Assembly: GCA_946557105.1 (NCBI GenBank)
Contig: CAMNSZ010000003.1
Span: 62,001 to 126,000, forward strand
Source: an uncultured Lachnospiraceae bacterium
Lineage (GTDB): Bacteria > Bacillota > Clostridia > Lachnospirales > Lachnospiraceae
Direction of reading: 5' to 3'
Length of the DNA: 64,000 bases
Below are positions 14,844 through 21,265 of this stretch, piece by piece (positions within the stretch are counted from its first letter, which is position 1; the number at the start of each line of letters is the position of its first letter). The position numbers and the translations under genes are program-made. A model generated the notes under the pieces. That model ran no database searches. It had not been told where the DNA came from and saw only the letters and a program-made list of their open reading frames with translations.

Positions 14844-15857
14844 TTGAAAAAATTGTATATAAATGAGAATCCTGAAATAAAATCATTACAGTTTAATGCC
14901 TTTGCAGAGAGTATAATATCCATCCATAAAAGTCATAAAGATTGGTTAGCAAATAATTATATTCAGTTACTTGTGCATTATTCATATGAAGACGCTGGAA
15001 TAATTAATTATTTATCTGGAAATATATTAGGTTCATTGCCTTTATTGAATATAAATGTTACCTCAAAGAGTGAAGTTATAGGAAGAGCTGGAATATTACA
15101 TTATATTATATCAAACATTGACGCAAATAATTATGTCTACATGTTGTTGGATGAATTTTATATCCCACATAGACCAATGTATGGTAAAAAACATTTTATG
15201 CATGACGAATTATTTTATGGATATGATCTTAAAAAAGAATTATTATTTTTAATTGGATATGATGATCAAGGTTTGTATAGAGGACACTCTGTAAGTTTTG
15301 AACAGTTTTGGCAATCTTATTCTGAAGATGATGGAGAATGGCTTCATCAGATTGCATTAACGGATTTTGATTACAAATTTAACAAGAAATCTTTTTTAGA
15401 CATGGTGACTGATTATTATGATGCAAAATTCCATAGAGAGAAACTTGATTTATATTTAGATATGAAAACTTATAATAAGCATTTTTACGATGAACGATTG
15501 AAAAATGTAGAATACTATGGAATAAGAGTTTATGATGCATTGTATGATAGTATTCAACGACGCATTGCAAATAAGAGAAAACTTAATATAAGAGACTTTT
15601 ATATAGTTTATGAGCATAAAAGCAGCATACTATACTCACTCAATTATTTAGAGGAAAACCATATGGTATCGGATCTCTCTTCGATAAAAGAGAAAATGAA
15701 TGAAATTAAGAAAGAGAGTAAAACCATGCTAAATTTGTGTATAAAGCATAATATTGTTAACTCTATTCAATTAGTGGATAATATATATGAGAGAATAGAG
15801 AAAATAAAGGTATTAGAGAAAAATACTATATACGAACTGATAGATAAGCTTACTTAA
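14844..15857 (+). CDS. BtrH-like / papain-fold protein, paralogue 1 (apparently no Cys nucleophile)
   Basis: Shares 'HDELFYGYD' with HGHPITGYD and HSINIIGYD in the two other paralogues; similar size and helical C-terminus. Confidence 0.45.
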   Translation: MKKLYINENPEIKSLQFNAFAESIISIHKSHKDWLANNYIQLLVHYSYEDAGIINYLSGNILGSLPLLNINVTSKSEVIGRAGILHYIISNIDANNYVYMLLDEFYIPHRPMYGKKHFMHDELFYGYDLKKELLFLIGYDDQGLYRGHSVSFEQFWQSYSEDDGEWLHQIALTDFDYKFNKKSFLDMVTDYYDAKFHREKLDLYLDMKTYNKHFYDERLKNVEYYGIRVYDALYDSIQRRIANKRKLNIRDFYIVYEHKSSILYSLNYLEENHMVSDLSSIKEKMNEIKKESKTMLNLCIKHNIVNSIQLVDNIYERIEKIKVLEKNTIYELIDKLT

Positions 15858-16248
15858 CCTAAATTATTCACAGAATCTTATTCCAACTAAGCGCTGTACT
15901 GTGAATTGATTATCCCATAAGATACTCATTTATATCCGTCAAAAGGATATAGAATTCCTACGACAATTGCAACGGTAGTTAGGTGATATGCAGGTTCGTT
16001 ACTATTGCTATTCTAATTGTATATTGCACTTTTTAGTACTTGTAAGAATCTTATAATCGCCCATTCTTATAAGGAATCTATTACATAAATTGAAGTTCTA
16101 TATTTTATTGAATGAATAACAGCAGAAAACACTGAGCAAAAGTAGTTAGAATATAAAATAATGAAAATTGTAGTACTAAAATTTAAATAAAATATAATAA
16201 CAAAAGAAAGGTATATGGTGTTTATTTAAAAACATTATAAGAGTAAAG

Positions 16249-17685
16249 ATGAAAAAAGCTATTGATTGCTTACTAATTGGATATTTAGGATATAATTATT
16301 CAAAAATTAATGAAACACTAGAGAAAAATGGATTAAGTTCTAATAAGATGGAAAAAGATTTTAATGCGGCCATTGCTTATCTGGGTACTTATTTAAATAA
16401 AAGAAATGTTACATTTGATTACATAAATTATATTGAAGATGATATGGAAATGTTAAAAGAAAAATTAGAGACATTAGATATCAGCTCTATAGGATTATCA
16501 ACGACATATTGTACAAGTATACAATCAGTAGAGTCAATTGTGGCATTTATAAAGAAAGTAAACCCTAATAAGGATGTGAAAATTATACTTGGAGGGGCTT
16601 ATATTACTAAATTAATAAATGACTCTGAGTTGCAAGATAATATGGTTTTACAATATGTCTTAAAAAAAATTGGTGCAGATATATATATTAACAGCTTTCA
16701 AGGTGAAGAGACATTATATAAGGTTATAATGGGATTAAAAATTGGTGCCACACTTGATGATATTCCTAATATATTGTATCAATATGAGTCTAAATACATA
16801 CGAAACGAGCTAGTACCAGAGGATAATAAGCTGGAAGATAATATTGTTGATTGGAGTCTATTTGCGGATCGAGTAGGTCGCACGGTACCAGTAAGAACTG
16901 CAATATCCTGTCCATTTTCTTGTTCATATTGTTCGTATCATATTAACGCAGGTAAATATCGCTATGTAGATGTGGATATTATTGAAAAAGAATTAAATTC
17001 TATTGATAAACTACCAAATGTTAAGACAGTTCATTTTATTGATGATACGTTTAATGTTCCAGTTGATCGCTTCAAAAAGATACTAAGAATGATAATAAGA
17101 AATAAATATAAATTCAATTGGTGTTCATTTATCAGATGTCAATTTTTGGATGAAGAGGCAGTCCAACTTATGAAAGAAAGTAAATGTATAGGTACATTTT
17201 TAGGAATTGAGTCTGGAAATCAATATGTTTTAAATAATATGAATAAGCGGGTTAAACTTGAAGAATTAGTTAAGGGAAATCAATTATTGGAGAAGTATGG
17301 AATACAAAGATTTGGTTCATTTATTGTAGGGTTTCCAGGAGAGACAGAGGAAACAGTAAATGATACAATTCAGTTTATTAAAGCTATAAATTTGAAATAC
17401 TATGGTGTTGCTACTTGGTATTATGATACTAGAACGCCAATCCATGAATTGAAAGATAAATATAAACTTATTGGTAAAGATTACAACTGGAAACATGAAA
17501 CTATGGATTTCAATAGAGCAATGGAGTTAAATCAGTATGTTAGAAATCAATTAACGACATCAATACATTTTGTTCAAGATCCAACATGGCTGTTTCAGTT
17601 GATAGATGAGAAGGTTGATATTAATCAGATTCTTGAAATAGTGCCACAAGACCCAGCGTTATTTACAGTACATAATTTTAAATAG
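16249..17685 (+). CDS. B12-binding-domain radical SAM enzyme, PhpK-like family
   Basis: CxxxCxxC in 'SCPFSCSYCSYH'; N-terminal cobalamin-binding-like Rossmann region; 'VHFIDDTFNVPVDRFKKILRMIIRNKYKFNW' resembles PhpK-type proteins from recall. Confidence 0.8.
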   Translation: MKKAIDCLLIGYLGYNYSKINETLEKNGLSSNKMEKDFNAAIAYLGTYLNKRNVTFDYINYIEDDMEMLKEKLETLDISSIGLSTTYCTSIQSVESIVAFIKKVNPNKDVKIILGGAYITKLINDSELQDNMVLQYVLKKIGADIYINSFQGEETLYKVIMGLKIGATLDDIPNILYQYESKYIRNELVPEDNKLEDNIVDWSLFADRVGRTVPVRTAISCPFSCSYCSYHINAGKYRYVDVDIIEKELNSIDKLPNVKTVHFIDDTFNVPVDRFKKILRMIIRNKYKFNWCSFIRCQFLDEEAVQLMKESKCIGTFLGIESGNQYVLNNMNKRVKLEELVKGNQLLEKYGIQRFGSFIVGFPGETEETVNDTIQFIKAINLKYYGVATWYYDTRTPIHELKDKYKLIGKDYNWKHETMDFNRAMELNQYVRNQLTTSIHFVQDPTWLFQLIDEKVDINQILEIVPQDPALFTVHNFK

Positions 17686-17703
17686 ATATTAATAAGAAGG
17701 AAA

Positions 17704-17952
17704 ATGATTAATATGTCTCAAATATATGATGTGATTATTAAAATACTAAAAGGATACTGTACGTCTGAAGTAGGGCTAGATACTGATTTATTCAAATGTG
17801 GATTGGATTCATTTAATGCCATGAATGTTTTAGTTGAGATTGAGAAGAACTATAACATCAGGTTTGAGGAAGATGATTTAGATTTAACTTGGATGAGTAC
17901 TGTTGAAAGTATAATAATGAAAGTTAAGTGTAAATTGGAGGAGAATCAATGA
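17704..17952 (+). CDS. Acyl/peptidyl carrier protein 1
   Basis: 82 aa with phosphopantetheine site 'CGLDSFNAM'. Confidence 0.9.
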   Translation: MINMSQIYDVIIKILKGYCTSEVGLDTDLFKCGLDSFNAMNVLVEIEKNYNIRFEEDDLDLTWMSTVESIIMKVKCKLEENQ

Positions 17953-19814: not shown

Positions 19815-19892
19815 GAAATGCTTTTGACCAAAGATATTAATTACGAATGAGTTTATTACAAATAGTATAACATTACAGGAGGTAAGAATAGT

Positions 19893-20141
19893 ATGAAGAA
19901 TGAAGTAGAAGGAAAGATTTTAGAAATATTTAGAAAGAGTCTTACTGACGTTAACTTAGATGACAAAAAATTAGTAGAAGCCCCTCTATCTACATTGAAT
20001 CTAGATTCTATAACTTTCATAAAAATTATAGTCGAGGTAGAAATGGAGTTTGATATTGAAATTGAGCCAGAAGAACTTGATGCCACTATATTTTATAATA
20101 TTAGAAGTTTTGTTCAGCACGTGGAAGAAATGCTTACCTAA
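19893..20141 (+). CDS. Acyl/peptidyl carrier protein 2
   Basis: 82 aa with 'LNLDSITFIKIIVEVEMEFDIEI'; good SD. Confidence 0.88.
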   Translation: MKNEVEGKILEIFRKSLTDVNLDDKKLVEAPLSTLNLDSITFIKIIVEVEMEFDIEIEPEELDATIFYNIRSFVQHVEEMLT

Positions 20142-20188
20142 GTATAAGTATACTAAGAGATATTCCTACTATACTAGGGGGCAAAATT

Positions 20189-21265
20189 ATGTATAAGTTG
20201 GATGAATTTTATACTTCAACAGGTCAGATATGCATTATGAGTTGTATTAGCGATATATTCAATTTTTATGGCTTAAATGTAAATGAAAGTATTGTTTTTT
20301 GCTTGGCTGAAGCAGGATTATTCTATTATAAACCTATTGATTTAGAAAGTGTATTATCTGAACATAAGGAAATGACTTTATTTGATTTAGTTATGGGTGG
20401 AATGAAATATAATATTCCATTAATGATAAAAAATATAATTCAACATTTTGAGTTCACAATAGAGACAAGCAGTAATACTGAGAAGAGAGTCGTACAAGAG
20501 TTTATTGAGAAGCACATTCAAAATGGGCGGCCAGTGTTATCGCTTTTATCAAGAGAATTTCTAGGTTATTTAATGCCCAAATATAAAAATCGTATCTCTC
20601 ATTCAATTAATATTATTGGATATGATTGGGAAAATAATCAAGTATACGCGTCAGATTCATATATTCCTACTAGCCCAACAACAGCGTATAATGGCGTTCT
20701 TTTATTTAATGAATATTTACAGTGCTTACAAACATCAGAAGATATATTTATGCAAGACTTTGGATTTCGTAATATTGTATTTGAAAAACATTCATCTTGC
20801 ACATTTGATGATTTATCGTATGACGCAGCACTCAGCCCACTAAAACATATGGCGGTAGAGTTTTTTGATAGCAATTTGCTACAAGGTAATATATACACAG
20901 GCATGAAAGCGTATCAACAGTTTTATGAGGACTATGATAAGTGGACTAAAATTGATAATAAAGTTATATTTTCACAAGTAATGAGATATGTACATAGTCG
21001 ACTTACTAATTTTGGGGGACCAGTAGTTACATACAGTTTATTTCATGAATATATCAGAAATCTTTTGATAAAAAAACAAGATTTATCATTATGTAAGATG
21101 TATTCTATATGCAATGATCTTGAAACAAAATGGTTTGTAATAGCTAATTTATTTGGTAAGGCTTCATTTTATGCAAATGACAATACAATGGAAAATCTTA
21201 GAGAACGAGTAAGAGCTGTTATAACTGATATGAATCAAATGTATCATATGATATTGGATATTTAA
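20189..21265 (+). CDS. BtrH-like / papain-fold acyltransferase-type protein, paralogue 3
   Basis: 'GQICIMSCISDIFNFYGLNVNESIVFCLAEAGLFYY' resembles BtrH N-terminal domain; 'HSINIIGYD'. Confidence 0.65.
   Translation: MYKLDEFYTSTGQICIMSCISDIFNFYGLNVNESIVFCLAEAGLFYYKPIDLESVLSEHKEMTLFDLVMGGMKYNIPLMIKNIIQHFEFTIETSSNTEKRVVQEFIEKHIQNGRPVLSLLSREFLGYLMPKYKNRISHSINIIGYDWENNQVYASDSYIPTSPTTAYNGVLLFNEYLQCLQTSEDIFMQDFGFRNIVFEKHSSCTFDDLSYDAALSPLKHMAVEFFDSNLLQGNIYTGMKAYQQFYEDYDKWTKIDNKVIFSQVMRYVHSRLTNFGGPVVTYSLFHEYIRNLLIKKQDLSLCKMYSICNDLETKWFVIANLFGKASFYANDNTMENLRERVRAVITDMNQMYHMILDI

Follow-up and report, generated by a model that had tools for sequence, protein, structure and literature searches.

Amides can be formed without the condensation domains of non-ribosomal peptide synthetases (NRPSs) by free-standing enzymes of the BtrH/CcbD/CtaG fold, an alternative solved recently. 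CcbD uses a Cys-His-Glu triad in a ping-pong reaction that depends on a carrier protein; its Asp114, 17 residues ahead of His131, is part of the acceptor pocket, and the pocket is shared between monomers (PMC12945683). CtaG has been proposed to transfer peptidyl groups from one acyl carrier protein (ACP) to another (PMC6772006), and AziU3/U2 is an aziridine synthase acting by sulfate displacement (PMC12559475). Here we describe three proteins of this superfamily, named B1, B2 and B3 (Table 1), which are encoded in a 64,000-nucleotide stretch of the genome of an uncultured Lachnospiraceae bacterium, a Firmicute of gut type (contig CAMNSZ010000003.1, positions 62,001 to 126,000; hereafter the window, whose own numbering is used throughout). 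B2 and B3 add to the known BtrH/CcbD/CtaG kind. What is new, judging from sequence comparison, is B1, a carrier-linked protein of putative function that lacks the catalytic cysteine and belongs to a clade of single origin.

The three open reading frames (ORFs) encode 337 (B1), 344 (B2) and 358 (B3) amino acids (aa), all on the forward strand, as the initial annotation had placed them, and the H-x5-GYD motif it had noticed in all three is confined to them among the 165 window ORFs of at least 60 aa. Shuffled versions of B1, B2 and B3 carried the motif in 76, 46 and 24 of 20,000 sequences each (0.12 to 0.38%), so its joint presence is not a matter of chance. The proteins had been called paralogues, which holds at the superfamily level but not in the sense of close duplicates: the best pairwise BLASTP match, between B1 and B2, covers the His motif and its surroundings (72 aa) at an E-value of 0.004, the other pairs gave no significant match, and no pair is significantly similar over its full length. 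Aligning the three with one another alone gave unreliable results. With the Pfam model BtrH_N (PF14399, curated cut-off 29.7 bits), B3 scored 53.4 bits, whereas B1 remained below the cut-off (18.9 bits, covering the His half only) and B2 had no match. Because similarity in BLASTP and Pfam is so slight, the three are ancient homologues within a common superfamily rather than recent duplicates. Their description as BtrH-like was borne out by Pfam for B3, by profile and fold for B1, and by a superfamily hidden Markov model (HMM) and fold for B2. The catalytic His, with which the GYD strand begins, occupies one invariant column (H120 in B1, H134 in B2, H138 in B3).

B1 is clearly the member without a cysteine, as had been suspected: Ala19 (14898-14900), in the segment SLQFNAFAESIISI, occupies the Cys column. 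The triad-Asp column holds Gly138, and neither Asp nor Glu is found there. What B1 keeps is His120 (15201-15203), Asp103 (15150-15152) and a conserved EHK at residues 257-259; the Asp-His spacing of 17 is the same in B2 (D117-H134). A profile of 29 B1 relatives could be aligned over 227 columns, at a probability of 98.8%, with a profile built from nine BtrH_N proteins that contain the Cys; the helical C-terminal domain was covered. The AlphaFold2 model of B1 (33 window and genome-contig sequences) reached a predicted local distance difference test score (pLDDT) of 90 and a predicted template modelling score (pTM) of 0.88. Foldseek matches of this model in the PDB at E<0.001 were only AziU3 (8gs1, 7wuw), CcbD (7yn1, 7yn2, 9dks and 9dkr, complexes with its peptidyl carrier protein (PCP) among these) and CtaG (9quz), with E-values of 6e-7 to 7e-5 and template modelling (TM) scores of ~0.55. 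The top match was 8gs1_D (AziU3; E 5.8e-7, TM 0.57), and a papain-fold phytochelatin synthase came next after these structures (E 3.5e-3). Independently of this, AziU3 was also the top PDB sequence for a merged sequence profile (E 0.002). In its model, B1 has the two-domain fold of the CcbD/CtaG kind, and the unrelated fold that the initial annotation had named as a ground for refutation was not seen.

Three further B1 relatives are encoded in the host genome, and when 397 genomes of the host's family were searched with a profile, 43 had a match, in some cases a partial one to Cys-type proteins. Further Cys-less members were found in Paenibacillus, Oscillospiraceae, Cellulosilyticum and Photobacterium galatheae (30 loci from a scan of the closer subset). 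We computed conservation on 76 unique sequences of the Cys-less clade, 68 of which cover position 19; here Ala was found in 53, Ser in six, Gly in four and Cys in none. The most conserved positions were His120 and Gly226 (tied at 74/76), and also Gly126, while the helical domain keeps [E/D]-H-K at 257-259 across the clade (His258 in 69/76). The triad-Asp column was occupied by Gly in 33 and by Asp in 32 of the 76. In a tree from which the Cys columns were excluded, the Cys-less rows formed one side of a branch with support of 99/99, so that the loss of Cys has, on the tree, a single origin and is not scattered decay. That B1 itself is a decayed, functionless copy, as the loss of two triad positions might suggest, is highly improbable, given that its 337-aa ORF is intact and lies in a tight cluster, and that the clade to which it belongs is large, of single origin, marked by strongly conserved residues and present with several members in one genome. 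The branch is widespread and apparently unremarked. Some of its members (L035, L036, L041, L043 and others) are ~500-540 aa long and have an insertion of ~150 residues right after the first helix.

Of the 81 Cys-less members, 23 have an ACP gene at a distance of up to 1 kb and 37 at up to 5 kb. In ten genomes, a B1-like gene stands between an ACP gene and a gene for a phosphopantetheinyl transferase (PPTase, PF01648) in one operon, and several of these operons adjoin nusG/rplK/rplA genes. Cys-less members also occur within polyketide synthase (PKS)/NRPS clusters of Paenibacillus and Photobacterium. In two Paenibacillus loci a Cys-type BtrH domain ends a PKS-like protein with a Cys-less member nearby, and this end domain is possibly a chain-release acyltransferase. 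Other members (L036, L038, L039) are found in loci resembling those of ribosomally synthesised and post-translationally modified peptides, with radical S-adenosylmethionine (SAM)/SPASM enzymes, subtilase-like proteins and ATP-binding cassette (ABC) transporters, and GH10-like genes stand beside Cys-less members in L036, L039 and L162. Both the gene neighbourhoods and the solved relatives CcbD and CtaG speak for ACP-bound compounds as the probable substrates of the Cys-less proteins.

The initial annotation had suggested that B1 may be a non-catalytic partner; such a partner of B2 or B3 could be a heterodimer subunit or an ACP-docking or chaperone protein. Its missing Cys and third triad residue would suit such a role, as would the pocket shared between CcbD monomers (PMC12945683), and a Cys-containing BtrH protein shares a locus with a Cys-less member in the window, L041, L142, L161, L162 and L164. 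Such pairing is, however, found in a minority of the fetched loci, and His120 is conserved as strongly as any residue. In addition, no Pfam-detectable BtrH_N protein was found in eight operon genomes (G002, G040, G070, G106, G129, G160, G180, G188) when 250 family genomes were searched, apparently the same draw as in the search for B1 relatives, with the caveat that divergent members such as B2 escape the Pfam model. A partner role is thus disfavoured as a general rule, and we regard it as unlikely for B1.

B3 carries the triad of Cys15 (20231-20233), His138 (20600-20602) and Asp156 (20654-20656), invariant across nine diverse BtrH_N proteins; the N-terminal Cys noticed earlier is Cys15 of this triad. 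In a wider alignment, Cys and His are kept in all other Cys-type rows, B2 apart, and the last triad column is D, E or N. B3 was placed in the CcbD/CtaG fold by profile only.

B2 is a divergent orphan. A superfamily HMM trained without it finds B2 with E-values of 6e-7 to 1e-7 over residues 65-312, with 0 matches in 200 shuffles. No significant relatives were found in 250 family genomes, 371 class genomes gave chance-level matches only, there were none on plasmids, and a scan of genome contigs with B2 alone yielded no match. Beyond residue 90 the order of elements in its AlphaFold2 model is as in B1, and the fold search with this weak model puts CtaG structures first (E 7.5e-6 onward). Next to Asp117 and His134 (18348-18350), the candidate nucleophiles of B2 are C8 (17970-17972) and C28 (18030-18032, in LLSCNEYTIWYLIRQAG). 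C8 opens the first predicted helix of the low-confidence model, the alignment is poor at the N-terminus, and neither residue is favoured by the position-specific scoring matrix or the model. An N-terminal Cys in the equivalent segment, as previously proposed, is present as C28, but this residue is not clearly the equivalent one and C8 is an alternative. The idea that two of the three proteins are probably Cys enzymes is supported strongly for B3 and moderately for B2.

On a narrow balance of probability, we favour the following explanation of the cluster. An amino acid:[ACP] ligase and an AMP-forming ligase would load separate ACPs, and the acyl or amide transfers that condensation domains perform in NRPSs would fall to BtrH/CcbD/CtaG-fold enzymes. 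B3, and probably B2, would work by a ping-pong reaction in which the acyl group passes from an ACP to the Cys, after which the His (with Asp) activates the acceptor amine. B1 would most likely keep this pocket and the contact with the carrier protein; its Asp103 would place the acceptor, and its His120 would promote a direct reaction of the carrier-bound substrate, without an acyl-enzyme. We infer that the three proteins are active and have ACP partners, and that B1 works by a mechanism free of Cys; for B1 a direct carrier-bound reaction is favoured because its His is maximally conserved and because the clade is present in genomes without Pfam-detectable BtrH_N. Several points weigh against this explanation. 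B1 has neither the Cys nor the third triad residue, which excludes acyl transfer by the known mechanism in this protein; the conservation of His120 may reflect a structural role or the binding of a ligand; no ACP was found within 5 kb of 44 of the 81 Cys-less members, in part owing to locus ends or missed ACP domains; and the model of B2 is weak (pLDDT 66, residues 1-77 below 50). More broadly, the papain-like fold of BtrH/CcbD might support a second kind of catalysis in the Cys-less clade, in which carrier-bound thioesters undergo aminolysis or cyclisation directly, assisted by His/Asp and with no acyl-enzyme; this would be a functional counterpart of the NRPS condensation domain, used widely in Clostridia and Paenibacillus. 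We offer this generalisation tentatively and think it rather doubtful.

The genes around B1, B2 and B3 are listed in Table 1. The two ligases are predicted to load one ACP and another ACP, respectively. The cluster also holds two radical SAM enzymes, two U32-type proteins, reductases, a methyltransferase and exporters. Its B12-dependent radical SAM enzyme is near but outside the curated family of PhpK P-methyltransferases. One U32-family protein is related to UbiU/TrhP, enzymes of O2-independent hydroxylation, and the neighbouring protein resembles it yet has no Pfam match; the two are possibly an anaerobic hydroxylase pair. Two proteins have an alpha-alpha-toroid fold signature, with no evident terpene genes in the cluster, and a 480-aa protein directly after B3 has no Pfam or NCBIfam match. 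The region is probably an undescribed antibiotic-style cluster, with a thiotemplate pathway that has no modular NRPSs and whose condensing enzymes are of the BtrH/CcbD/CtaG fold.

Table 1 Features of the window and of related loci (positions in the window unless a locus is named).
Feature	Position	Strand	Evidence or remark
ABC exporter half-transporter	7732-9603	+	PF00005, NCBIfam
ABC exporter half-transporter	9610-11421	+	by sequence
Sulfotransferase-like protein (weak call)	11491-13011	+	P-loop IHIGSAKTGSTALQ; no Pfam match of its own; relative only: PF00685/PF13469, E 0.015/0.032
Short-chain dehydrogenase/reductase (SDR)	12968-13855	+	by sequence
SDR	13955-14719	+	PF13561, E 3.4e-47
B1, Cys-less, predicted BtrH/CcbD/CtaG/AziU3 fold	14844-15857	+	sub-cut-off BtrH_N, AlphaFold2, Foldseek, clade tree
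B12-dependent radical SAM enzyme, PhpK-family-like	16249-17685	+	TIGR04479, 488.6 bits (cut-off 600)
ACP1	17704-17952	+	PF00550, E 6.8e-9; Ser in GLDSFN; stop overlaps B2 start (17949)
B2, divergent superfamily orphan	17949-18983	+	superfamily HMM, AlphaFold2 and fold search
Alpha-alpha-toroid proteins	18990-19814, 22791-23765		SQHop_cyclase_C, E 1.5e-6; weak Prenyltrans
ACP2	19893-20141	+	PF00550, E 4.1e-7; Ser in LDSIT; 47 bp upstream of B3
B3, BtrH_N protein	20189-21265	+	BtrH_N over cut-off, conserved triad
480-aa protein	21274-22716		
U32-family protein	23789-24730		
U32-like protein	24866-25741		
Amino acid:[ACP] ligase, class II aminoacyl-tRNA synthetase-like	25725-26846	+	NF005479, E 3.5e-41 (below cut-off); PF00587
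ACP3	30347-30703	+	PF00550, E 8.1e-7
AMP-forming acyl ligase	31181-32575	+	PF00501, E 6.2e-51
PKS-like proteins with C-terminal Cys-containing BtrH-type domain, Paenibacillus	L161:10-3498, L142:18977-20974		
ACP - Cys-less BtrH-like - PPTase loci	L024, L026-L029, L031, L032, L037, L118, L119		

If these proposals hold, the Cys-less branch marks many unassigned clusters of anaerobes, that of the window included, as thiotemplate pathways, and a nucleophile-less branch with a kept His beside carrier proteins and an activating enzyme makes the mechanism a testable question.

Among the known systems, AziU3 (azinomycin; 8GS1, 7WUW, 7WUX) is the best fold match of B1 and shares its D-x16-H spacing. 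It is conceivable, if quite improbable, that B1 performs other chemistry on a tethered amine, such as an AziU3-like ring closure by sulfate displacement (PMC12559475), with the sulfotransferase-like protein, encoded three genes upstream of B1, making the leaving group. The fold scores of AziU3 and CcbD are nevertheless almost equal, the sulfotransferase call is weak, and that ORF had no match in other B1-like loci. Moreover, the AziU3-like proteins of azinomycin-type clusters keep their Cys, and in Streptomyces loci of this type a ~195-aa AziU2-like partner gene and LysW stand beside the AziU3-like gene; inspection of the window ORFs revealed neither beside B1. We also rejected the notion of B1 as an AziU3-type enzyme sharing the absence of Cys with AziU3, since AziU3-like proteins keep this residue. 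An AziU3-like protein on a Mesorhizobium loti plasmid (L175:3719-4735) apparently has neither residue of the Cys/His pair.

BtrH (butirosin) is represented in Pfam by PF14399, for which B3 scores over the cut-off with its Cys, His and Asp; B1 has the same N-terminal domain at the profile level but is Cys-less and below the cut-off. No aminoglycoside genes were noticed in the window. DarH, a BtrH-related acyltransferase (NCBIfam NF053550), matches B3 weakly (19.8 bits over the Cys/His domain, cut-off 300). CtaG (closthioamide; 9QUZ, 9QVJ and variants) is the best fold match of B2, and the titles of its variant structures (C11A, H128A, D144N) name its corresponding triad residues. Its cluster resembles the window in coming from an anaerobic Firmicute and in having carrier proteins that stand alone, with no modular NRPS, but the accessory genes differ and CtaG and B2 are only ~12% identical. 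CcbD/LmbD (celesticetin, lincomycin; 7YN1, 7YN2, 9DKR, 9DKS) differ from B1 at ~9% identity, CcbD having Cys19 and its Cys-His-Glu triad where B1 has no Cys and no acid in the +18 column. They are like B1 in fold (Foldseek E 7e-6 to 7e-5), the acceptor Asp-His spacing of CcbD is that of B1 and B2, and CcbD forms amides in dependence on carrier proteins, which the cluster of B1, B2 and B3 likewise has in ACP1, ACP2 and ACP3.

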